Shown here in pieces: positions 44,621 through 63,773 of a stretch of DNA of 64,000 bases. A program made the translations under genes and the position numbers. The notes under the pieces were generated by a model that saw nothing but the letters and a program-made list of their open reading frames with translations, did not search any database and was not told the origin of the DNA. Position 1 is the stretch's first letter. The number at the start of each line of letters is the position of its first letter. This stretch comes from Nitrosopumilus sp. b3 (GTDB lineage Archaea; Thermoproteota; Nitrososphaeria; Nitrososphaerales; Nitrosopumilaceae). The stretch lies in the NCBI RefSeq assembly GCF_014078525.1, contig NZ_MU078694.1, positions 62,001 to 126,000 of the forward strand, in the 5' to 3' direction.

Positions 44621-44674
44621 CTAGTGCTAATTCATGCCTGAGTGGCTTAAAGAAACTGTTTAATTTAGCACTAT
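44621..44674. promoter_or_regulatory. TTASCACTAG elements upstream of 44698 gene
   Basis: CTAGTGCTAA (44621-44630, reverse orientation) and TTAGCACTAT (44665-44674, forward). The forward copy sits where the TATA region for a leaderless start at 44698 is expected. Confidence 0.55.
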
Positions 44675-45087: not shown

Positions 45088-45539
45088 GTACTTTTACTAT
45101 GGAGCGTTGTTCCTATTTACCACAAAACAGACTTTTTCAATTAAGTACTGACGTAGAAAACTTTCATAATATTATGCCAGAAAATTTCAAATCACTTGAA
45201 GTGATAAAGGAAAATGATTATGGTAAGATTGTAATTGAAAAAATAAATTTTTTAGGAATTCCTTTAAAAATTAAAACAAAGCATGTTGTTGTAAAACCAA
45301 ATGTACATGAGATCCATATTTTAAATGGGCCTACTAAAGGAACTGTCTTTACTGAAACCTATGTTCAGTCTGGAAATGGAACTATAGTCTCTATAGAGGT
45401 AAAATTAATTCTTAGTGGGTTTTACCGCTTGTTTGGTTTTTTAGAGGGATTTCTTAAAAACAAAATAAGTGCTACCATGGATAAATTCATTGTTGCTGTT
45501 GAAAAGTATGATAGTTCTCTTACCTCATATCAAAATTAG
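45084..45539 (+). CDS. SRPBCC/START-like lipid-binding protein
   Basis: 151 residues; TTG start overlaps the preceding stop (TTGA), with ATG 45099 as an alternative. The helix-grip pattern is visible: an N-terminal strand, LFQLSTDVENFHNIMPENFKSLEVI, beta strands in the middle and a long C-terminal helix (FLEGFLKNKISATMDKFIVAVEKY). Coenzyme Q-binding/cyclase relatives act on hydrophobic ligands, which fits a CrtI-like neighbour. Confidence 0.7.
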   Translation: MSTFTMERCSYLPQNRLFQLSTDVENFHNIMPENFKSLEVIKENDYGKIVIEKINFLGIPLKIKTKHVVVKPNVHEIHILNGPTKGTVFTETYVQSGNGTIVSIEVKLILSGFYRLFGFLEGFLKNKISATMDKFIVAVEKYDSSLTSYQN

Positions 45540-45572
45540 CACTATGCTATTTTGTTGGCACTTGCATAAATA
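45536..45572 (+). promoter_or_regulatory. Tandem TTASCACTAG promoter of CrtI-like gene
   Basis: TTAGCACTAT (45536-45545) and TTGGCACTTG (45555-45564), 19 bases apart, lead straight into the TATA box CATAAATA (45565-45572). The ATG at 45594 is about 25 bases further, so the transcript should be leaderless. Confidence 0.65.
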
Positions 45573-45593: not shown

Positions 45594-46928
45594 ATGACTA
45601 AAACAGCAGTGATTATTGGTGCCGGTGTTGGAGGGCTAACGACTGGAGCCCTGCTGTCAAAACAAGGCAATATCGTTAGAATTTTAGAAAAATCATCCAA
45701 ACTTGGTGGTAGAACAGCCTCCATGAAATATCGTAATTATATTCTTGATAATGGATTTCATATAATGCCGTTTTACAAAAAATCTGCTATTTTTAGTGTA
45801 TTAAAAGAAATTGGAATAGAACATAGATTAAAGCTTGCAAAAGTCAATGACATTGCATTTCATTCTGATTCTGGATTTCATAAATATCCAAAAGGAATGA
45901 TTGACCTTCTACAACTTTCATTAATTCCATTAAAGAGTAGAATAAGATTGCTCAAGCTTTTACTTCCTATGGCATTCTCATCTATTGAAAAAACAGAGGA
46001 GTGGGATGATAAATCATTAATTGATATTACAAAAAATCTTGATCCTGACACAAATGCCTTTTTTGAGGCAGTTTGCATGCTGGCATTTGCAGATACTGCT
46101 GACCATATTTCATTGGGTGAATTTGCAAGAACTATAATCCGAGCAAATCCGTTTAAAGGGGGTACAAGTGAATTTGCATACCCTGATGAAGGGGGCTATG
46201 ATTCTATTTCAAGAGTTTTAGGTGATTACATAATTGAGAACAAGGGCACCATTGAAACAAATCATTCTGTAAAAAAAATTGTCATAGAAAATTCTAAAGT
46301 TATAGGAATTATAGAAAATGATGGGACTTTTTTTAAATCTGATTGTGTTGTAGTCTCTTATCCTGCATACATGGCACTAAAGCAATTATTTGATGAAAAT
46401 ATAATTGACAGAAAATTTGCTGAAAAAATAAATCGTTTGGATAAAAAAACTGCCGTGGTAGAAGTTCATTTTGCACTAAACTCTAAAATTGATTCTCGTC
46501 AAGTTGTTTTTCCAGTAGGGAATAGTTATACCACAAAAGGCATTTTCTTTATTTCAAATATCGCCCCATCTGTTTCTCCTAAAGGAGAACACTTGATAAT
46601 TGCTGGAACGCCTGTTGATCCATCTGTAGCTGATGACTCTGTAAAAATTAAAGAAATCGTTGAAAAAATGAAAGATGAAATTTCATCGATTTATCCTGAA
46701 TTCAATTCATCCTTGCTTTGGGAAAGGCCCATGGCTTGGAAGCTTGTAGAGTCAGTTGTAAAGGAGCCTGGAATGGTTTGGAAGTCTAAAATGCCTCATG
46801 AAATTCCTGGTATTGAAGGCTTATTTTTTGTTGGAGATTCTACAATTAGTTATGGGATAGGAACAGATTCAGCAGCTCATAGCTCGATTTTATGCACTCC
46901 TAAAATCCAATCCTTCTTAAAATCTTGA
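45594..46928 (+). CDS. CrtI-like FAD-dependent oxidoreductase
   Basis: 444 residues. The N-terminal dinucleotide-binding motif VIIGAGVGGLTTGALLSKQG is followed by EKSSKLGGRTASM, the phytoene desaturase/amine oxidase signature. The C-terminal FAD contact FVGDSTISYGIGTDSAAHSS also fits. Likely a carotenoid or polyprenoid desaturase/isomerase-like flavoprotein; other amine-oxidase substrates cannot be excluded. It follows an SRPBCC gene and precedes, convergently, the B12-domain gene, which fits a light- or redox-linked unit. Confidence 0.85.
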   Translation: MTKTAVIIGAGVGGLTTGALLSKQGNIVRILEKSSKLGGRTASMKYRNYILDNGFHIMPFYKKSAIFSVLKEIGIEHRLKLAKVNDIAFHSDSGFHKYPKGMIDLLQLSLIPLKSRIRLLKLLLPMAFSSIEKTEEWDDKSLIDITKNLDPDTNAFFEAVCMLAFADTADHISLGEFARTIIRANPFKGGTSEFAYPDEGGYDSISRVLGDYIIENKGTIETNHSVKKIVIENSKVIGIIENDGTFFKSDCVVVSYPAYMALKQLFDENIIDRKFAEKINRLDKKTAVVEVHFALNSKIDSRQVVFPVGNSYTTKGIFFISNIAPSVSPKGEHLIIAGTPVDPSVADDSVKIKEIVEKMKDEISSIYPEFNSSLLWERPMAWKLVESVVKEPGMVWKSKMPHEIPGIEGLFFVGDSTISYGIGTDSAAHSSILCTPKIQSFLKS

Positions 46929-46934
46929 ATTATT

Positions 46935-47780
46935 TCATTTTACTTTTCTTATGATTTTTGGAATTTCCTCAAGATTGATATCTGAAACTACTTGAGCATC
47001 AAACTTTGGAATTTTCTCCGATTGGACTGCTCTTCCTCCAACTAATATTGGAATTTCAAATTCTCCCTTAATTTTTTTAATCAATCTTTGTGCTGCTAGT
47101 AAGTTATCTTCTAAGGTAATTGAAATTAGTACTAGATTTGGTTTATCATTTTCAATAAACGTAAGAATCGATTCTGTTGGTATTGATGTTCCAATATTGT
47201 ATACTTTGTATCCCTTTATTGTTAGATATGTTTCCAACACATCACATCCCAAATGATGCTCTTCTCCTAAGGGAACGCATATGAGAATTTTTTTCTTATT
47301 TTCAGAACCTTTTACTCTATCCATAATTATTTTCACTAGTGTGAGTGCTATGTTGCTTGCAACGTGTTCTGTGGCAACACTGATTTTGTTACTTGCCCAA
47401 TCTTCTCCAACTTGGTACATAACTGGCTTGAGAATTTTGTCAAAAAAGTCTGCGGTATTAAATAATTTTTCATATTCTTCATAAATTTTAATTGAATCTT
47501 GAATATTTCCATCAGTCAATTTTTTGTATAATTGTTTCTTAGATTTTTTTGATGCATCCTCTCTTTTTTTAATGTCTTTTGGATTAAATGATGCAAGAAC
47601 AGATAGAACTTTTGGATCTTTTCTATAGTCTAATGGTATGTCGTCTTTTACAACTTCAGATGCCTTACCAAGATATTTCACAATCTCTTGTTTTGATGTG
47701 CTCTTCTTTGAATCCCACACACTCCTTACAAGATAGAGATATTGATCAGATTTTACTTTTTTAGCTCTAATGTATACCAA
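46935..47780 (-). CDS. B12-binding-domain protein with novel N-terminal module
   Basis: 281 residues from TTG 47780, placed about 25 bases after a TATA box (GATATATAAC, 47801-47810). The C-terminal half is a cobalamin-binding pair: a helical cap (FFDKILKPVMYQVGEDWASNKISVATEHVASN) with the W..(x)..E..H pattern of CarH/LitR and MetH, then a Rossmann B12 domain with ExHxxG (GEEHHLGCD). The N-terminal ~55 residues (YIRAKKVKSDQYLYLVRSVWD...VKYLGK) look like the N-terminal module of some transposase/archaeal proteins, not a MerR HTH. A light-sensing role as in CarH is an inference from domain and neighbours. Confidence 0.8.
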   Translation of the reverse strand: MVYIRAKKVKSDQYLYLVRSVWDSKKSTSKQEIVKYLGKASEVVKDDIPLDYRKDPKVLSVLASFNPKDIKKREDASKKSKKQLYKKLTDGNIQDSIKIYEEYEKLFNTADFFDKILKPVMYQVGEDWASNKISVATEHVASNIALTLVKIIMDRVKGSENKKKILICVPLGEEHHLGCDVLETYLTIKGYKVYNIGTSIPTESILTFIENDKPNLVLISITLEDNLLAAQRLIKKIKGEFEIPILVGGRAVQSEKIPKFDAQVVSDINLEEIPKIIRKVK

Positions 47781-47800: not shown

Positions 47801-47839
47801 GATATATAACTAATGCCAATAATTTTTACTAGTGGTAAA
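47801..47839 (-). promoter_or_regulatory. Tandem TTASCACTAG promoter of B12-domain gene
   Basis: On the minus strand TTACCACTAG (47838-47829) and TTGGCATTAG (47819-47810) are 19 bases apart and lead directly into the TATA box at 47801-47810. The first copy is part of a near-palindrome TTTAC-5 bases-GTAAA (47825-47839). Confidence 0.7.
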
Positions 47840-47848
47840 CTTTCTGGA

Positions 47849-48247
47849 CTATTTTTTTGCTTTGATAAAATCAACAATCGATAAAATTTCTCCCATTTCG
47901 GCTAAATGGCCATAACTTTTACCTTTGATGTTTGACATGGGCTTGTTGTTAACGCTGATAAATAACATATTGCCTTCATCCAGCGGAACTGTTATTCTTT
48001 TGATTTTATCATATGATGCTATGGTGTATAATCCTGAACCTACGATGCCTGTAATTGCTGAATTTTCTTTCCATGCCTCTATATCTCTTGAAATGGTATC
48101 CTTTGTCTCCTCTAACGGGACAATGTTTTTGACTCCTTTTCGCTGACTGTTCCAAAGAAATTCTCCATTTTTATTACAAACTGCAGCAAATCTGATAGAC
48201 TCGTTAAAATCCATCAACATGTTGAGAAGTTTTTCATATTTGTCCAC
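47849..48247 (-). CDS. Roadblock/LC7-like (DUF6659) protein
   Basis: 132 residues, MDKYEKLLNMLMDFNESIRFAAVCNKNGEFLW at the start, then SYDKIKRITVPLDEGNMLFISVNNK, and a C-terminal helix. Close paralogue of the next gene (48373), about half of residues matching by eye. Its promoter carries a TTACCACTAG element. Confidence 0.65.
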   Translation of the reverse strand: MDKYEKLLNMLMDFNESIRFAAVCNKNGEFLWNSQRKGVKNIVPLEETKDTISRDIEAWKENSAITGIVGSGLYTIASYDKIKRITVPLDEGNMLFISVNNKPMSNIKGKSYGHLAEMGEILSIVDFIKAKK

Positions 48248-48270: not shown

Positions 48271-48303
48271 AATAAATATTCTAAATCTCTGAACTAGTGG
48301 TAA
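48271..48303 (-). promoter_or_regulatory. TTASCACTAG promoter of 47849 gene
   Basis: TTACCACTAG on the minus strand (48303-48294); a degenerate second copy TTAGAATATT (48284-48275) lies 19 bases further and overlaps the TATA-like ATATTTATTA. ATG 48247 is about 25 bases beyond. Confidence 0.55.
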
Positions 48304-48875: not shown

Positions 48876-49421
48876 ATGGATAGTCCTTATACTGATTTTG
48901 TTGGTAAAGTTTGGGCAGAATTCCCCCAGCTTGCAGAATGGCACAATTTAGATAAATCTATTCTTCCTTTATGGGGTTTAGATAAATTCATTGAAGCAGG
49001 ATACCATAACTTCTCATCTGACCGAAAGTCATTATTTCATCTTAGTAAATTAATTGAAGCTTATGCGCAAAAAAATAGTCAACCATTATTGGCCTCTTTT
49101 GAAGAAGTCAAGCGGTACAAATTTGTTGAAAAAAGATATCAGGAAATGATTAAAACAATTCCAAAAATATGGGTTATTGCAAATTTTGGAAAAACTGAAT
49201 TCAAAACCCCTCCAAAAATCCAAGTGTTGAATTGTGGAAATACAAATTTGGCAAAGGTATGGACTGTAATCACTAGAGGACCTTATGGCCCATTTGGATT
49301 AATTGCTGAAGAATTTGAAGCTGGAATGTTTAGAGGATTTTTCACACTTAACCCAAATGTTTGCCGATACGCTCTAAAAGTAATGGGCAAAACACTTGGT
49401 GCAAAATTTACAATTCAATAA
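48876..49421 (+). CDS. DICT-like sensory domain protein
   Basis: 181 residues, soluble. Blocks match the DICT (PF10069-type) pattern: FHLSKLIEAYAQKNSQPLLASFEEVKRYKFVEKRYQEMIKTIPKIWVIANFG, then the WTVIT...GPFGLIAEE block and RGFFTLNPN. DICT domains occur in haloarchaeal and cyanobacterial signal proteins and are suspected to take part in light responses. TATA box ACTTATATC (48846-48854) lies 25 bases before the ATG. Directly upstream of photolyase; a paralogue is at 54065. Confidence 0.65.
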   Translation: MDSPYTDFVGKVWAEFPQLAEWHNLDKSILPLWGLDKFIEAGYHNFSSDRKSLFHLSKLIEAYAQKNSQPLLASFEEVKRYKFVEKRYQEMIKTIPKIWVIANFGKTEFKTPPKIQVLNCGNTNLAKVWTVITRGPYGPFGLIAEEFEAGMFRGFFTLNPNVCRYALKVMGKTLGAKFTIQ

Positions 49422-49444
49422 TAAATTAGCATTTTAAACTAAAG

Positions 49445-50791
49445 ATGTATGAAAAGTCCTTATTTATTTTTAGAAGAGATTTAAGATTACATGACAACAC
49501 TGGATTAATAAAATCACTCGAACATTCAAAATCTGTCATTCCGTGTTTTATTTTTGATGCTGATTTAGTAAAGAATCCAAAAATTTCTAAATTTAGATGG
49601 ACTTTTCTTTCCCAATCCATATCTGATTTGGATTTACAATTAAAAAAGAAGAACAGTACTCTTAATCAATTTCAGGGCGATTCGTCTCTGATCATAGATG
49701 AAATAATTCGAAAACACCATGTAGATGCAATCTTTGCAAATACTGATTTTTCTAAATACTCAAAATCGCGTGATGCTAAAATTCATCAAGTTTGTAAAAA
49801 AAATAACATTAATTTTCATAATTCACTTGATTATCTTTTACATAATCCAAATGAAATAAAAACAAATGATGAAAACCCCTACATGATTTACTCTCATTTC
49901 TACAAAAAGGCACGCCAATTTCCTGTTAGATCTCCTTCAAAAAATTCTAAAAAAAATTATTTTAATGCAAAAATATCTAGTGCTCAAATCTTAGCACCAG
50001 AAATTAAAAATCCCGAAATTCCAGGTGGCAGAAATGAAGGTTTGAAAATACTAAAAAATTTGGAAAAGTTCATAGATTATAAAAAATTTCGAGATTTTCC
50101 AAGTCTTTTTCATACTACAACATTATCTGCGCATAACAAATTTGGAACTTTGTCTATCAGGGAAATTCATCATGCAATTAAACAAAAACTTGGTTTAGAC
50201 CATATTCTGATGGGTGAAATCTATTGGAGAGAGTTTTTCAACCATATCTTATTTCATTTCCCATGGTCCCAAAAAAAATCATTTAGAAAGAAATTTCAAA
50301 AAATCAGGTGGTCTAATTCCAAAGAGCATTTTTCTGCTTGGTGTAATGGGAAAACTGGATTCCCTATTGTTGATGCAGGGATGAGACAGCTTAACCAGTC
50401 TGGGTTTATGCATAATCGAGTTAGAATGATTGTAGCTTCCTTTTTGACGAAAGATCTTCATATTGACTGGAGATTAGGGGAGAGATATTTTGCTAAAAAA
50501 TTAGTCGATTATGATCCTGGAGTAAACGTTGGAAATTGGCAATGGGCTGCATCAACGGGGTGTGACTCTGTTCCATACTTTCGAATTTTTAATCCTTGGT
50601 TGCAACAAGAAAAATTCGATTCTGAATGTTTGTATATTAAAAAATGGGTTCCTGAATTAGATAACTTGCCTCCAAAAATCATTCATAATCTTTGGAAATC
50701 TTTTCCAGAAGATCTGGATTATGTACATCCAATGGTAACACACAAAATTGAATCTGAAAAAGCTAAATCTATTTTTAAATCACAAAAATAA
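49445..50791 (+). CDS. phr: Deoxyribodipyrimidine photolyase (class I)
   Basis: 448 residues. Antenna domain (KSLFIFRRDLRLHDNTGL at the start), then the FAD-binding helical domain: GEIYWREFFNH, WCNGKTGFPIVDAGMRQL, HNRVRMIVASFLTKDLHIDW, and GVNVGNWQWAASTGCDSVPYFRIFNP. These are the residues for FAD binding and CPD recognition in class I photolyases. It uses blue light to split pyrimidine dimers. 23 bases after the DICT-like gene, likely the same transcript. Confidence 0.96.
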   Translation: MYEKSLFIFRRDLRLHDNTGLIKSLEHSKSVIPCFIFDADLVKNPKISKFRWTFLSQSISDLDLQLKKKNSTLNQFQGDSSLIIDEIIRKHHVDAIFANTDFSKYSKSRDAKIHQVCKKNNINFHNSLDYLLHNPNEIKTNDENPYMIYSHFYKKARQFPVRSPSKNSKKNYFNAKISSAQILAPEIKNPEIPGGRNEGLKILKNLEKFIDYKKFRDFPSLFHTTTLSAHNKFGTLSIREIHHAIKQKLGLDHILMGEIYWREFFNHILFHFPWSQKKSFRKKFQKIRWSNSKEHFSAWCNGKTGFPIVDAGMRQLNQSGFMHNRVRMIVASFLTKDLHIDWRLGERYFAKKLVDYDPGVNVGNWQWAASTGCDSVPYFRIFNPWLQQEKFDSECLYIKKWVPELDNLPPKIIHNLWKSFPEDLDYVHPMVTHKIESEKAKSIFKSQK

Positions 50792-50844: not shown

Positions 50845-50861
50845 TTTTACTAGTGGTAAAA
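50845..50861. promoter_or_regulatory. Palindromic TTASCACTAG element between convergent genes
   Basis: TTTTACTAGTGGTAAAA: perfect 6-base arms round TAGTG, containing the TTACCACTAG core on the minus strand. It lies between the 3' ends of phr and the TFB paralogue, where no start is expected. A second partial copy overlaps the TFB stop (50869-50879). Confidence 0.5.
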
Positions 50862-50868
50862 TATACTG

Positions 50869-51777
50869 CTAGTGTCTAATTCTTTTTCTTTGGGCCACTT
50901 GAACCTCTTTAACCCTATTGCGAATGGTGACAGCACTAATGCCTGATATTTGAGAAAGTCGAGTTTGTGAAATTCTTTCATCATTTTTCTTTACCGCTAG
51001 GTATACTGCAGCTGCTGCCATTGACATTGGATGTTTTCCGTAATTTATGCCTGCCTTTTGACTAAATTCCAAAATCTTTCTTGCATCACGCATAGTTTTT
51101 TCAGAAATCTGGGCCTCACTTGATATACGTGATATGAATTCTGATGGGTTGTAAGACACAGAATGGACTTCAAGATTTCTACAAAGAAGACGATATGTTC
51201 TCTGAATTACTTTCTTTTTAATTCCTGATGCATTTGCAATATCATCCAATGTTCTTGGTGTATCTGTCATTCTACATGCCATGTATACTACTGCACAAAG
51301 AATGGAATGATTTGAACGACCTGCAAGTAATTTTTTTTGTTCAGCTTTTCTAAACAAGTATGCTGATTTTTCAACAACATATTCAGGTAAGGCTATCTTT
51401 GATCTGATACCATCAAGAAAAGTAAATGCTTTGACATATGACTGTTTAGTAATTGAAGATTTACTGTTTCTATCCCACATTCTTAGACGGTGAAATGATT
51501 GTTTGTTTTTAGTAGATAAAATTCTCCCTGAAGCATCTTTGTTTTGAGATTGAATTGATGTGGATAGTCCCATATCTGCCATTTTTAATGATATTTTTTG
51601 TCCAGTTCTAGAATTATTTTGATAGTCTTCCATGGCTTGATTTTGATTTTCTGGACCAAAATCAATAATTTTTTCAGACAGCACCTGTGCACAATTTTCA
51701 CAAGCTATTTCTCCTGTAACAGCATCAGTGATTTTAAAATAATGTTGGCAAGCTTCCTCTAATTCCCTTTGCTCCAT
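50869..51777 (-). CDS. tfb2: Divergent transcription factor B paralogue
   Basis: 302 residues. Both cyclin-fold repeats and the C-terminal HTH (QISGISAVTIRNRVKEV) are kept. The zinc ribbon is altered: the first CxxC pair reads CQHYF, so only one Cys (with a nearby His) precedes the second pair CENC. The B-reader/linker is shorter and lacks EWRSF. BRE-contacting helix differs from that of the copy at 37593. It may direct polymerase to a subset of promoters. Its upstream region holds a TTAGCACTAT element (51834-51825, minus). Confidence 0.88.
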   Translation of the reverse strand: MEQRELEEACQHYFKITDAVTGEIACENCAQVLSEKIIDFGPENQNQAMEDYQNNSRTGQKISLKMADMGLSTSIQSQNKDASGRILSTKNKQSFHRLRMWDRNSKSSITKQSYVKAFTFLDGIRSKIALPEYVVEKSAYLFRKAEQKKLLAGRSNHSILCAVVYMACRMTDTPRTLDDIANASGIKKKVIQRTYRLLCRNLEVHSVSYNPSEFISRISSEAQISEKTMRDARKILEFSQKAGINYGKHPMSMAAAAVYLAVKKNDERISQTRLSQISGISAVTIRNRVKEVQVAQRKRIRH

Positions 51778-51824: not shown

Positions 51825-51834
51825 ATAGTGCTAA
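51825..51834 (-). promoter_or_regulatory. TTASCACTAG element upstream of TFB paralogue
   Basis: TTAGCACTAT on the minus strand, about 50 bases before the ATG at 51777 and 25 before the TATA-like CAATAAAAAC. Suggests autoregulation within the putative regulon. Confidence 0.5.
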
Positions 51835-51902: not shown

Positions 51903-51940
51903 TTAGCACTAGTAATTATTTTAACACTAGGTTATATGCT
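51903..51940 (+). promoter_or_regulatory. Tandem TTASCACTAG promoter of 51960 operon
   Basis: TTAGCACTAG (51903-51912) and TTAACACTAG (51921-51930) exactly 18 bases apart, followed at once by the TATA box GTTATATGC (51931-51939). ATG 51960 is 25 bases on. The clearest example of the element. Confidence 0.75.
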
Positions 51941-51959: not shown

Positions 51960-52145
51960 ATGGCTGAAGAACAAGAATGGGCTAATTTGCTAGCAGAAAT
52001 TTTTGAAAAACTCACTCAAAAACATGCCTCAATCACATATGACTTTGAGGATCTTGCAATGAATGGGAGAGTAGAAAAAGATGGCAAAGTAATCCCCACA
52101 GGTACAGTTGCCTTAACTGGTAAACTGACTATAACTGCAAAATGA
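51960..52145 (+). CDS. Conserved hypothetical protein, 61 aa
   Basis: Start at ATG 51960 is fixed by the TATA box 25 bases upstream; a TTG at 51945 would lie before the predicted transcription start. MAEEQEWANLLAEIFEKLTQKHASITYDFEDLAM..., ending in beta strands with VALTGKLTITAK. Family unknown. Ten bases before the next gene. Confidence 0.6.
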   Translation: MAEEQEWANLLAEIFEKLTQKHASITYDFEDLAMNGRVEKDGKVIPTGTVALTGKLTITAK

Positions 52146-52155
52146 GGTGATTGAA

Positions 52156-52521
52156 ATGAAAGATTTTCAACTCCCTGCATATTTTTTATCCTATCTGGAT
52201 AATGGATCTCTTAAAATAAAATGTGATGAAAACACATCAATAAATTTTTTCATTGATGGTGATTCTAGAATTATAGATGTTCTTGATGTTCCAATTAAAC
52301 TTGACAAAAAACCTGGCTTGATAAAACAATTATCAGAAGGAAAAGATCTTGCAAAAAATCTTAAAGATAAAGGAATTACACTTGAAATCCGATATCAAGG
52401 TAAAACTGCGCTAAAATTAGGAAGAGATGCAAATCCCAAACTTGCAAAAATTGTTACATTAAGTAATGATATTGAAATATCTGATTTGAAAATTCTAAAA
52501 AAACTGAGCGATGTATTCTAA
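52156..52521 (+). CDS. Conserved hypothetical protein, 121 aa
   Basis: ATG 52156 is preceded by a good ribosome site (GAGGTGAT) and is preferred to GTG 52147. Mixed alpha/beta with DVLDVPIKLDKKPGLIKQLSEG and ITLEIRYQGKTALKLGRDANPKLAKI. No known motif. Part of the 51960-53948 operon. Confidence 0.55.
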   Translation: MKDFQLPAYFLSYLDNGSLKIKCDENTSINFFIDGDSRIIDVLDVPIKLDKKPGLIKQLSEGKDLAKNLKDKGITLEIRYQGKTALKLGRDANPKLAKIVTLSNDIEISDLKILKKLSDVF

Positions 52522-52568
52522 TAATATGATTTCAAACAATGAATCTCTCCAAAAATTTGTAATATAAG

Positions 52569-53948
52569 ATGTCTCAAAAAATAACAACAGAAATGCATTA
52601 TAAAGAAAAACCCTTTAGTATTTTGGTAACTGGTGCAACTGGTTTTATTGGTTCCAGATTGATATTTGATCTAACAGCAAATGGCTATTCTGTTAATGGA
52701 ATGTCTAGAAGAAAAATTCCTTCAACTGGAAATATTAAATATGTGCAGGCTGATGTTTTTGAACCATCAGAATTAGAGGATGCCTTATCTGGAGTTGAAA
52801 TCGCATTTTATCTGCTTCATTCTATGGAAGGGAATAAAGAAGAATGGAAGGAATTTGCTAATCGTGAGAAAACACAGGCTCAAAATTTTTTAAATGCTGC
52901 CACCAAATCTGGTGTCAAAAGAATCATCTATCTGGGAGGATTGGTAAATGATAGTATTTCACTATCACCCCATATGAAAAGCAGAAAGGATGTCGGTGAA
53001 ATTCTTGCATCGGGGACTATCCCAGTTACTGAATTACGGGCTTCCTTGATTATTGGAGCTCAAGGTGGATCTTATGCAATGCTACGATATCTTGTGGAAA
53101 GATTGCCTGTCATGGTTTGCCCTTCTTGGGTTAAATCACTTGCACAACCAATTGCAGTTGATGATGTAATTCTATATCTAAGAGGATGTTTGGAGAAGCC
53201 TGAAACTACAGGTAGAATTTTTGAGATAGGTGGACCTGAAAAAGTCACTTATGAGCAATTAATGCGAATTTATGCAAAATATTTGGGAAAGAAATTACTG
53301 GTATTACAAATTCCCTTTCTTACTACACGTCTATCATCATATTGGGTAGATCTAATTACTCCTGTTAAAGCATCTTTGGCTCGACCTCTAATTGACAGTC
53401 TAGTTCATGATACTGTTGTAACTGACGACTCTATAACAAAAATTATTCCTGGCTCGCTAAAATCTGTAGTTGAATCAATTGATATTGCAACAAAAGAAAT
53501 TAGAGAAAATCCTCCTAAAATGCCTCTAAAAGAAGAACGCACTGGATTTAAAATAAATCAAAAACTTTTGATGGCCTCATTGATTGCAATGGCACTTGTA
53601 GGTACTACCTTTTATTGGCTTGATGATCGAGCTGAGCTCTCTGAACCAATTTGGATTTTTGCTGGAATCATATGGTATGTTGCAATCATTACTGCAATAT
53701 TCTTTGTCAAAAATAAGACAAGGCTGGGATATCTTATTGGTGGAATTTTGTCTTGGATAACTCTTGCGTTTTGGCTATTTGATGATTTTTACTTATTATT
53801 TAATACGTCATTGATTATTACACAGCCAAATGAAGTGATAACAATTAGAAATATTGTCTGGGTTGCCCTATCCGCAGTTGCAGTATTTGCATCGCATAAT
53901 ACTTTTCACAAAATAATAGATTACCAATTCAAAGGTAAACCTATCTGA
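52569..53948 (+). CDS. NAD(P)-binding (YbjT/DUF2867-like) protein with TM tail
   Basis: 459 residues. The N-terminal ~330 residues are an atypical SDR: ILVTGATGFIGSRLIFDL (about 17-34), LLHSMEG, and RIFEIGGPEKVTYEQLMRIYAKYLG near 220, as in YbjT-type quinone/NADH proteins. The C-terminal ~120 residues hold four hydrophobic helices. YbjT-like genes are often found beside photolyase genes in bacteria. Third gene of the operon driven by the tandem-element promoter. Confidence 0.8.
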   Translation: MSQKITTEMHYKEKPFSILVTGATGFIGSRLIFDLTANGYSVNGMSRRKIPSTGNIKYVQADVFEPSELEDALSGVEIAFYLLHSMEGNKEEWKEFANREKTQAQNFLNAATKSGVKRIIYLGGLVNDSISLSPHMKSRKDVGEILASGTIPVTELRASLIIGAQGGSYAMLRYLVERLPVMVCPSWVKSLAQPIAVDDVILYLRGCLEKPETTGRIFEIGGPEKVTYEQLMRIYAKYLGKKLLVLQIPFLTTRLSSYWVDLITPVKASLARPLIDSLVHDTVVTDDSITKIIPGSLKSVVESIDIATKEIRENPPKMPLKEERTGFKINQKLLMASLIAMALVGTTFYWLDDRAELSEPIWIFAGIIWYVAIITAIFFVKNKTRLGYLIGGILSWITLAFWLFDDFYLLFNTSLIITQPNEVITIRNIVWVALSAVAVFASHNTFHKIIDYQFKGKPI

Positions 53949-54704: not shown

Positions 54705-54714
54705 CTAGTGGTAA
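54705..54714. promoter_or_regulatory. TTASCACTAG element upstream of 54741 operon
   Basis: CTAGTGGTAA, minus-orientation TTACCACTAG, about 27 bases before the ATG at 54741. It overlaps the place where the TATA box is expected, so here it might repress rather than activate. Confidence 0.45.
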
Positions 54715-54740: not shown

Positions 54741-55052
54741 ATGTCAAAAGAATCATTACTTCTCATGGTTGATATTATCTGGGGAAACGGCTCTGAAATA
54801 TTAAGTTCAAATTCTTTTGTTTTGAATGTTACACATAGAAAAAATGGAAACAAAATAAATTATGATGACTCTGAAAAAATTCAAATCACTTCCGCAGATA
54901 TTCCTGGATTGCCTGTTAGTCAAAATGACTGGAGCGAGGATTTGTTGAAAAAAAACCTGATTGGGACGTTTCTTAAATGTGAAATTGAAGAAAAAGATAA
55001 TTCTGGAATGATTCTTGGTAAGGTTTCCCATTCTGGTGTTGGGGGATATTGA
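54741..55052 (+). CDS. Conserved hypothetical protein, 103 aa
   Basis: Beta-rich soluble protein (LMVDIIWGNGSEILSSNSFVLNVTHRKNG, ending SHSGVGGY). The stop overlaps the start region of the 2OG-oxygenase gene (TTGATG), so translation is coupled. Family not recognised. Confidence 0.5.
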   Translation: MSKESLLLMVDIIWGNGSEILSSNSFVLNVTHRKNGNKINYDDSEKIQITSADIPGLPVSQNDWSEDLLKKNLIGTFLKCEIEEKDNSGMILGKVSHSGVGGY

Positions 55053-55828
55053 TGTGGGAACCTCAGATAGTAGATTATTCAAAAGTACGTACTGTTGATA
55101 TTGATTCATTATTGAGTGGAGGAATTCCTGCAATAGTAGTAAAAAATTTTTATAAAAAAGATTTGTGCCGGAAAATTGTTACTAGAATAGAAAACTGTAA
55201 AAAAAATTATTTTTTGAATGGTCACTCGATGCATATTGGAACTTTTTTGATGGCTTATGCAACCCAAAAAGAACTATACTTTGAGGATGTGAAAAAATAT
55301 GAATATGCACTCAATAGTATTTTTTCAAAAATAAAAAACCCCGCATTAAAAATTCATGAATTCATTAATTCTGTAATGCCTCATTTTGATATTTCACAAG
55401 CTAGAGAATTCCATAGTAAATACTCTCCATTTATTGTTAGAATACATGAAAAAGGAAAATCAATCCCAATTCACAAGGATAATGTAAAGTATGAAGGAAT
55501 TGAGTATGAAATTTCTAAAATTGATCATCAACTATCATGCGTACTTCATTTACAAGAATCTGAATATGGTGGAAATTTAGTCATATACAATAAACAATGG
55601 AATAAAGAAAATGAGGTGTTTAGAAATATTGATTTTGGATATTCATCAAAATTGATAAGTTCTGTAGCATCTTGCGAAATTCCCAATATTACTTCTGGAG
55701 ATTTAGTGATAATCAATCCCAATTATTATCATAAGGTGACAAAAATCACTGGAAAAAACCCTAGAATTACTCTGGGCATGTTTTTGGGCATCTTTGAAGG
55801 TGCGCAAAAAATTGTTACCTGGGCATAA
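55052..55828 (+). CDS. 2-oxoglutarate/Fe(II) oxygenase-like protein
   Basis: 258 residues from ATG 55052. Jelly-roll core with the metal facial triad HKD (IPIHKDNVKYEG) and a distal His (NPNYYHKVTKI), followed by Arg in NPRITLGMFLG, the likely 2-oxoglutarate contact. LSCVLHLQESEYGGNLVIYNKQW is typical of prolyl-hydroxylase-like 2OG-Fe enzymes. Substrate unknown. A nucleic-acid or protein target is possible. Confidence 0.75.
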   Translation: MWEPQIVDYSKVRTVDIDSLLSGGIPAIVVKNFYKKDLCRKIVTRIENCKKNYFLNGHSMHIGTFLMAYATQKELYFEDVKKYEYALNSIFSKIKNPALKIHEFINSVMPHFDISQAREFHSKYSPFIVRIHEKGKSIPIHKDNVKYEGIEYEISKIDHQLSCVLHLQESEYGGNLVIYNKQWNKENEVFRNIDFGYSSKLISSVASCEIPNITSGDLVIINPNYYHKVTKITGKNPRITLGMFLGIFEGAQKIVTWA

Positions 55829-58618: not shown

Positions 58619-59161
58619 TTAGATATTGTCTTTTGCTAAAATTTTAAACAAATTACCTTCTTCTTGTTCTGAATACAGTAAGAAATATGTCTGACTAGCA
58701 AGATATGTTGAATTGAATCTGAATATTATGGGATTGATCTCTGATAACAATCTTCCAAGCGTAATTTTTTCTTCCTGAAATTGTTTTAGTAAATCAAAAA
58801 ATAATTCTTTTTCAGACTTGTTGAAATTTTGGGAAAAATATCCAAAAATATGCATTATGACATTACAATGTGTTTTGATTGTGGGCTCTTTTTCTAATGC
58901 ATCCCTTAGATGTTTTTCATATTCTATGACTGCCTCTAATAATTGTCCTTTTTTATAATCTGCAACAACATGTCCCAGTTTTTTTAATTTTTCTTGATCA
59001 TGTGACATTATCATGAATTTGTTGGCAGTATGAAATGAGATTAGTTCTTTTATTTTGTTTGATTTTTTTACATCTTCAAATTTTTTAAACACAAATTCTT
59101 TAAGATCCTTTTCGGGGATATTGTGAATTGCTGAATCCCTAATCTCTAATTTTTTACTCAT
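58619..59161 (-). CDS. DUF1722 (YbgA-like) protein
   Basis: 180 residues. ISFHTANKFMIMSHDQEKLKKLGHVVADYK, then HCNVIMHIFGYFSQNF and the C-terminal LNQTYL-like ASQTYFLLYS match the DUF1722 pattern. In E. coli the YbgA gene stands next to photolyase, so this family is linked to light damage or DNA repair. Converges on nreA with a three-base gap. A TTACCACTAT element at 59213-59222 may serve this gene or the divergent one. Confidence 0.8.
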   Translation of the reverse strand: MSKKLEIRDSAIHNIPEKDLKEFVFKKFEDVKKSNKIKELISFHTANKFMIMSHDQEKLKKLGHVVADYKKGQLLEAVIEYEKHLRDALEKEPTIKTHCNVIMHIFGYFSQNFNKSEKELFFDLLKQFQEEKITLGRLLSEINPIIFRFNSTYLASQTYFLLYSEQEEGNLFKILAKDNI

Positions 59162-59212: not shown

Positions 59213-59281
59213 TTACCACTATGATTTTTCATTTTTATGAATAAATTACCACTAGAGAATATTTTAGCACCAGTTTAAATA
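59213..59281 (+). promoter_or_regulatory. Triple TTASCACTAG promoter of 59304 gene
   Basis: TTACCACTAT (59213-59222), TTACCACTAG (59246-59255) and TTAGCACCAG (59264-59273). The last two are 18 bases apart and the third runs directly into the TATA box TTTAAATAC (59274-59282). ATG 59304 is about 25 bases on. Confidence 0.7.
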
Positions 59282-59303
59282 CTATTTTACAATTAAATTA
59301 TTA

Positions 59304-60209
59304 ATGAAAATCGCAATAACTGCAATCGCAGCTATCTTACTTGTTGCTTCGACTGCATCTTTGACTTATGCTGAGGGCGTTCCTGCTTGGGTAAAGAACA
59401 ATGCTGGTTGGTGGGCAGATGGCACTATAGCCGAGTCTGAATTTATTTCAGCCATAGAATTCCTCATCAAGGATGGAATTATTGTAGTTCCTCCAACAAC
59501 TGTATCTTCTGAATCCGCTGAGGGCGTTCCTGCTTGGGTAAAGAACAGTGCTGGTTGGTGGGCAGATGGCACTATTTCTGATGGTGAATTTGTAAATGGC
59601 ATTCAGCATTTGATAAAGACTGGACTAATCTCTGTCTCCTCAAATACTGAAACTCCGCAAATGGCATCTGAAAAACCAAAAAGTGATGATTCTAAGTTAG
59701 CCGCACTAGAATCTGAATTAGAAAAATGCTCTGAAATTAAAGTAGGTTACAAAAGAATTGATTGCCAAAAACCACTGAAAAAAGCAATCACTCTTTACGA
59801 ACATCAAACCAATGCAGAAAAATTTGAGATTGGTCCAATTACATATTATTGGTATGGAATTGGTTCCGAGGGAAATGAATTTGAGATTACTCCTACTGGT
59901 CAACCTATTTTATCAATTCGAATGCTAGCTGAAAATACTAGTTCTGAAATTACAGCAATGCACTGTACTAGTCCTTCGATATGCAGCTATGATGTTTGGG
60001 ATGGAACTAAAGCCTTCAAATACTCTGGAATGGATTTTACGAGTGGTGAAATTGTATTGAATCCTGGTGATTCAAGAGAGTTTAACATTCTCTTTGGACC
60101 AAATATTGGATATGGTGGTACTGAGTTTGAGTATGATCCATCAAAGACATATTATTTTAGAATTAATGAAAATTTTGGAAGTGTTGACATTCCCTTAGAA
60201 TTAAAGTAA
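59304..60209 (+). CDS. Secreted protein with two Trp-rich repeats
   Basis: 301 residues. Signal peptide (cleavage near LTYAEG, about residue 23). Two near-identical repeats VPAWVKNNAGWWADGTIAESEF and VPAWVKNSAGWWADGTISDGEF follow, with 58 of 59 bases identical at their core. A linker then leads to a ~150-residue beta-rich C-terminal domain ending in PSKTYYFRINENFG, with Cys pairs (HCTSPSICSYD). Extracellular or pseudoperiplasmic. It is the secreted output of the element-driven promoter group. Confidence 0.7.
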   Translation: MKIAITAIAAILLVASTASLTYAEGVPAWVKNNAGWWADGTIAESEFISAIEFLIKDGIIVVPPTTVSSESAEGVPAWVKNSAGWWADGTISDGEFVNGIQHLIKTGLISVSSNTETPQMASEKPKSDDSKLAALESELEKCSEIKVGYKRIDCQKPLKKAITLYEHQTNAEKFEIGPITYYWYGIGSEGNEFEITPTGQPILSIRMLAENTSSEITAMHCTSPSICSYDVWDGTKAFKYSGMDFTSGEIVLNPGDSREFNILFGPNIGYGGTEFEYDPSKTYYFRINENFGSVDIPLELK

Positions 60210-62984: not shown

Positions 62985-63023
62985 TTAGCACTAGTAGATA
63001 TTTTTGAGCACTATTCATATATC
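62985..63023 (+). promoter_or_regulatory. Tandem TTASCACTAG promoter of 63043 operon
   Basis: TTAGCACTAG (62985-62994) and TGAGCACTAT (63005-63014), 20 bases apart, lead into the TATA box CATATATC (63016-63023). ATG 63043 is about 25 bases on. Confidence 0.65.
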
Positions 63024-63736: not shown

Positions 63737-63773
63737 TTAGCACTAGTCAAAAAATTACCTCTAGATTATATTT
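63737..63773 (+). promoter_or_regulatory. Tandem TTASCACTAG promoter of 63802 gene
   Basis: TTAGCACTAG (63737-63746) and TTACCTCTAG (63755-63764), exactly 18 bases apart, run into the TATA-like ATTATATTTT (63765-63774). A GAGGAGA ribosome site is at 63795-63801, before ATG 63802, so this transcript has a short leader. Confidence 0.6.

Follow-up and report, generated by a model that had tools for sequence, protein, structure and literature searches.

Does the reading frame at positions 46935 to 47780 of this DNA encode a B12-dependent light sensor, and does its product control the surrounding genes through a recurring DNA element? The window, that is, the whole stretch of 64,000 nucleotides analysed here, is from Nitrosopumilus sp. 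b3, and all positions refer to it. The initial annotation had described a B12-binding-domain protein at this position, and the frame was confirmed to be a 281-codon minus-strand frame containing both Pfam B12 domains. The start codon was placed at the TTG at 47780 by comparison with orthologues; a further-upstream TTG (47819) falls within the proximal DNA box of the gene's own promoter. The gene and its parts are as follows.

46935 to 47780, minus strand: candidate CarH-like B12-binding regulator of 281 amino acids, TTG start at 47780; fold nearest to CarH.
47592 to 47780, minus strand: N-terminal module (residues 1-63), non-MerR and presumed to be a DNA-binding head; 14 invariant positions across 15 diverse relatives.
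47328 to 47537, minus strand: helical cap, B12-binding_2 (residues 82-151); Pfam 3.2e-9, above the cut-off.
47364 to 47399, minus strand: Wx9EH motif (residues 128-139), WASNKISVATEH; present in 73/74 relatives.
47022 to 47288, minus strand: Rossmann B12-binding domain (residues 165-253); Pfam 1.5e-12, above the cut-off.
47247 to 47264, minus strand: ExHxxG lower-ligand motif (residues 173-178), EEHHLG, followed by the exact x41-SxT-x25-GG spacing.

In a comparative study, two signatures define CarH photoreceptors: Wx9EH, located in the cap, and D/ExHx2G/P-x41-SxT/V-x22-27-GG, located in the Rossmann domain; photoreceptor activity is tied to Wx9EH (PMC9304148). Both signatures are exact in the regulator candidate: the first is formed by W128 and E138-H139, and the second by E173, H175 and G178, then x41, S220/T222, x25 and G248-G249. 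The earlier assignment of the C-terminal half to a CarH-type helical cap plus an ExHxxG Rossmann domain is thus borne out by the Pfam matches, by E173, H175 and G178, and by both signatures. The single exception to Wx9EH among the 74 relatives is a second copy, L108. The best-scoring NCBIfam model was the CarH equivalog, at 63 bits against a cut-off of 400, which was not met; the MtaC, MtbC and MetH models matched more weakly, all below their cut-offs. A Foldseek search with the AlphaFold2 model (mean pLDDT 69) gave CarH cobalamin domains as the best matches, and the top matches in a sequence search of the PDB were the photocobilins 8J2W and 8J2Y. The weaker model matches would be accounted for if the protein were a corrinoid protein of methyl transfer (MtaC/MtbC/MetH type) with an unrelated N-terminal extension. 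However, this can hardly be maintained, given that Wx9EH is present, that CarH is best by both family and fold with all MtaC/MetH family scores below the cut-off, that no partner methyltransferase is found among the annotated neighbours, and that a promoter element is linked to the gene.

None of the 73 relatives with Wx9EH has a His directly after its Trp, and the corresponding residue of the regulator candidate is A129. In many, not all, members of CarH/LitR, this His gives a bis-His light state. In one study, the H132A variant of TtCarH largely remained tetrameric in the light, and His132 was needed for tetramer release (PMC10442372). Since the His is absent, the light state of the regulator candidate, if it is a photoswitch, would differ from that of T. 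thermophilus CarH.

The N terminus (about residues 1-55) had been described as unlike MerR, and no MerR match was obtained with residues 1-80 by Pfam or NCBIfam. It forms a strongly conserved module of about 50 residues. The module had no match in Pfam, PHROG or PDB, only chance-level matches by tblastn in plasmids and phages, and no relatives in a search of viral contigs. In a profile search of 300 genomes of the phylum, it was found mainly on the B12-regulator family. Weak profile matches in one genome (E 2e-8 to 3e-3) included one on a DDE_Tnp_1 protein, and there were also weak matches on Fic proteins (E about 3e-4 to 4e-3). The Fic-family proteins with a related N-terminal module are L137-L140 (genomes G008, G067, G028 and G058). 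These carriers suggest that the module may be a mobile adaptor domain of unresolved fold, and the transposase relative fits a putative DNA-binding role without proving it. AlphaFold2 runs on the full protein and on the module alone, using an alignment of close orthologues, left the head unresolved; its helices had low pLDDT and were not trusted.

The element TTASCACTAG, which the initial annotation had suggested the protein might read, proved to be real and far above chance. The window contains 28 matches with at most one mismatch, compared with 4.3 expected, and 9/17 of the exact copies in the 1.79-Mb genome fall within 19 kb of this window. In the 90 bp upstream of 75 family members, TTRGCACTAK-N8/9-TTRGCAYTAR was found directly before the TATA box in nearly all cases. 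This tandem element is kept upstream of orthologues down to about 30% identity, including those of other families. The promoters and genes concerned in the window are listed below.

47802 to 47838, minus strand: promoter of the regulator gene, with distal box TTACCACTAG (47829-47838), proximal box TTGGCATTAG (47810-47819; period 19) and TATA (47802-47809).
45536 to 45572, plus strand: tandem element and TATA of the CrtI-like gene; element in 23/25 relatives.
45594 to 46928, plus strand: CrtI-like FAD amine oxidase, putative regulon member (Pfam Amino_oxidase 3.9e-31; co-occurrence).
51903 to 51940, plus strand: tandem element (51903-51912 and 51921-51930) with a TATA, upstream of the operon that begins with ATG 51960.
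51960 to 53948, plus strand: putative operon of two small proteins and an NmrA/SDR-type oxidoreductase (52569-53948); SDR relatives with an element of their own at 12/33 loci.
59246 to 59282, plus strand: tandem element and TATA before the secreted-protein gene, between it and the divergent DUF1722 gene; 28/29 relatives.
59304 to 60209, plus strand: secreted protein with repeats, putative regulon member.
63737 to 63764, plus strand: tandem element before the gene of a 104-aa protein (start 63802, extending beyond the end of the window).
48294 to 48303, minus strand: single distal box 56 nt upstream of a DUF6659-like gene (47849-48247).
51825 to 51834, minus strand: single box TTAGCACTAT 57 nt upstream of a TFB gene (50869-51777); spacing from the sequence.
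44621 to 44630, minus strand: single box 57 nt upstream of the gene of a 61-aa zinc-ribbon-like protein (start 44573).
48876 to 50791, plus strand: DICT-like gene and photolyase, conserved neighbours with no tandem element of their own here.

The counts given for the CrtI-like, secreted-protein and SDR genes are matches to a tandem matrix that was built from the promoters of B12-regulator orthologues and then applied to neighbour genes, with the shuffled maximum as the threshold. The matrix also matched at 5/7 DICTb genes and at 2/2 of the small genes heading the SDR operon. No site above the shuffled maximum was detected at the GTPase, CoA-binding, MscS, BtuF and NreA genes, which served as control or neighbour genes, and the photolyase gene had no tandem element directly upstream at any of the six loci tested. 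The count at the regulator's own promoter (49/52) is circular, the matrix having been trained on those promoters, and the promoter counts are not independent, the loci being orthologous and of common descent.

A scan for tandem elements that covered about 1.63 of the 1.79 Mb of the genome (about 91%) gave scores of 25-30 for the top six sites, whereas in the reversed control a single site exceeded 16 and no site exceeded 18. Of the top seven sites, six are in this window, within 18 kb, and these include five of the top six; the remaining one of the top six precedes the gene of a 58-aa zinc-ribbon-like protein elsewhere. Single boxes peaked at 55-59 nt before start codons (7/34, compared with 0 in the control), as is expected of leaderless promoters. 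Within the genus, box counts averaged 11.2 in genomes with the protein and 4.6 in those without it (6.0 and 5.7, respectively, in the reversed control), and a strict tandem match was present in 21/27 of the former and 1/15 of the latter. The tandem comparison is partly circular, its signal being largely the regulator gene's own promoter; the single-box count is less so. Four genomes that lack the protein (G006, G016, G067 and G129) had raised box counts, which seemed to contradict the link between element and protein; however, none of the 30 sites read there had a second box plus a TATA.

Two further observations were made on boxes in the window. The photolyase and TFB genes converge, and a tandem box pair lies between them at 50850-50878. 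No gene evidently starts downstream of this pair, which possibly serves an antisense or non-coding transcript. The exact boxes at 54705-54714 and 62985-62994 have no start codon at the usual 57-nt distance.

The distribution of the element bears on the identity of its reader. Another factor could read the element, for example a dedicated TFB whose BRE preference is extended, or a regulator not seen here; the B12 protein would then be no more than a partner or a co-regulated target. In 34/52 loci a TFB gene is a neighbour, and the proximal box is at the BRE, both of which would agree with such a reader. On the other hand, relatives of the window's TFB above 80% were found in only two loci and the rest are at about 57%, although the element does not change with them; it also persists at several loci that have no nearby TFB (e.g. 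L096 and L100-L104); the B12 protein is the gene common to the element-bearing loci; and a pair of boxes set this far apart does not resemble a BRE. We regard a reader other than the B12 protein as improbable, and the TFB encoded in the window was judged unlikely in that role because it varies or is missing while the element persists. A light-protection gene set, together with the regulator's own gene, appears to be under the putative control of the B12 protein via the conserved element.

The neighbours named in the initial annotation (a CrtI-like flavoprotein, a photolyase, two DICT-like proteins and a BtuF-like protein) are all real, although one DICT-like protein has only a weak, sub-threshold Pfam DICT match, and the BtuF-like and photolyase genes lack a tandem element directly upstream. 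The BtuF-like gene was rejected as a regulon member for that reason. Photolyase is encoded in 37/90 genomes with the regulator and in 2/109 without it, and the CrtI-like gene in 57/90 and 2/109, respectively; these counts were not corrected for phylogeny, and many of the genomes are incomplete. Photolyase, SDR and FAD oxidoreductase genes are found in bacterial LitR light operons (PMC9758184), and DUF1722 also belongs to light-responsive LitR operons in bacteria (PMC11417400). In the window, a photolyase, an SDR/NmrA protein, an FAD amine oxidase and a DUF1722 protein (58619-59161) are encoded together within 14 kb; the DUF1722 protein is stand-alone, and its gene diverges from that of the secreted protein, which bears the box. 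In Thermus and Staphylococcus plasmids, genes for bacterial SDR relatives are next to genes of UV repair or carotenoids. A search of plasmids with the CrtI-like protein gave no match, and with the amine oxidase encoded next to the Thermus SDR it shares only the FAD motif; its orthology with the flavoproteins of bacterial light operons was therefore not demonstrated. Separately, a 2OG-Fe(II) oxygenase at 55049-55828 strongly matches WelO5 carrier-protein-independent halogenases (Pfam E 2.4e-29), which is unexpected in an ammonia-oxidising archaeon.

This gene content also bears on the signal perceived. The protein might read the element and bind AdoCbl but sense a metabolite or redox/oxygen state (cobalamin status, oxidative stress) rather than light. 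Such a role is conceivable in that ammonia-oxidising archaea make cobalamin (PMC7554672), that the lack of a His next to the Trp may weaken a photoswitch of the CarH type, and that a complete carotenoid pathway was not shown in the cluster. Nevertheless, we consider it unlikely, because the photolyase co-occurrence is near-exclusive, Wx9EH is the motif linked to photoreceptor activity (PMC9304148), the cluster content resembles bacterial LitR light operons (PMC9758184, PMC11417400), and no box occurs at the BtuF-like gene. The initial reading, in which a CarH-like B12 sensor uses a non-MerR head to read TTASCACTAG, is supported by the full CarH signature, by the tandem element at its own and photoprotection promoters, and by the photolyase co-occurrence, and it remains the best explanation. 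The sequences establish the presence of the domain with both signatures, the element and its place in promoters, the set of genes that carry it, and the co-occurrence; cobalamin binding, photolysis and DNA binding are inferred.

It is fairly probable that the protein is an AdoCbl-dependent light-responsive repressor, in which a CarH-type cobalamin domain is joined to a non-MerR module acting on tandem boxes, with repression likewise inferred. In the dark, AdoCbl would be held between the cap and the Rossmann domain with His175 as the lower ligand, and Trp128 and Glu138 would pack against its adenosyl group. The AdoCbl-bound oligomer would occupy both boxes of the tandem element. Because the proximal box directly adjoins the TATA, at the site of TFB contact with the BRE, the bound regulator would block initiation at its own gene, the CrtI-like flavoprotein gene, the SDR operon, the secreted-protein gene and others. 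Light would cleave the Co-C bond, and the resulting change of oligomer would release these target genes.

Activation is the main alternative to repression. A regulator bound just upstream of the TATA could recruit TFB/TBP, with light turning activation on or off, and the distal box is about 28 bp upstream of the TATA, a usual place for archaeal activators. We find this possible but doubtful, since the proximal box directly abuts the TATA and covers the BRE position, an arrangement that favours repression by occlusion. CarH, moreover, is a repressor in the dark (PMC4557120), and the proposed occlusion would match that behaviour. Most likely, an autoregulated regulator, probably a dark repressor, governs photoprotection in Nitrosopumilaceae and related families, its cobalamin and DNA binding and the sign of regulation being inferred.

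With CarH/LitR, the MerR-type AdoCbl photoreceptors (e.g. Thermus thermophilus CarH, PDB 5C8D/8C31), the regulator candidate shares the cobalamin fold, Wx9EH and ExHx2G-x41-SxT-GG, an element at its own promoter, and the light-protection neighbours photolyase, SDR, FAD oxidoreductase and DUF1722. It differs from them in its archaeal host, in lacking the MerR winged-helix head and the His after Trp, and in its putative operator, a 10-bp box in tandem with an 18-19 bp period that abuts an archaeal TATA. Photocobilins (8J2W, 8J2Y) likewise fuse a B12 photoreceptor domain to other modules, but theirs are a globin-like bilin-binding domain and enzyme outputs instead of a putative DNA-binding module. 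AerR of Rhodobacter, a B12 antirepressor of CrtJ, is also a B12-binding protein in light-regulated transcription; it acts through CrtJ, whereas the archaeal protein seems to own a DNA-reading module and an operator, DNA binding again being inferred.

CarA of Myxococcus xanthus is a B12-independent paralogue of CarH. Second copies, 35-39% identical, occur in the archaea as well: L108 (G114:C1:795431-796261) and others in G063, G077, G183, G185, G187 and G194. L108, the only one aligned, has lost the Trp and EH of Wx9EH and kept the B12 motif; it has no element upstream and adjoins photolyase, DICT and DUF6659 genes. It resembles CarA in lacking the Wx9EH residues with the B12 motif kept, and differs in its archaeal N-terminal module and in the loss of EH as well as Trp.

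No earlier description of CarH in ammonia-oxidising archaea, and no light sensor of these organisms, was found in the literature searched, which was open-access only. We lean slightly towards regarding the system as the first photoreceptor regulon in Archaea that depends on B12. In this reading, a CarH-type sensor would have exchanged its MerR head for a module shared with transposase and Fic proteins and would read a tandem box at core promoters; the sensor is present in several ammonia-oxidiser families and in some duplicated into a CarA-like partner without Wx9EH. Experimental confirmation would make it the first known archaeal light regulator based on B12, with the CarH light domain joined to a different, presumed DNA-reading head. 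A dedicated TFB in a light regulon would be an archaeal counterpart of bacterial light-induced sigma factors, and the tandem element offers a ready putative operator for archaeal gene switches. A direct test of the archaeal light response would need only a single protein and a 40-bp DNA. In the ocean, ammonia-oxidising archaea rank among the most numerous cells, and their habitat is limited by light. A B12-based sensor, if true, would couple their light response to a cofactor that these archaea make.
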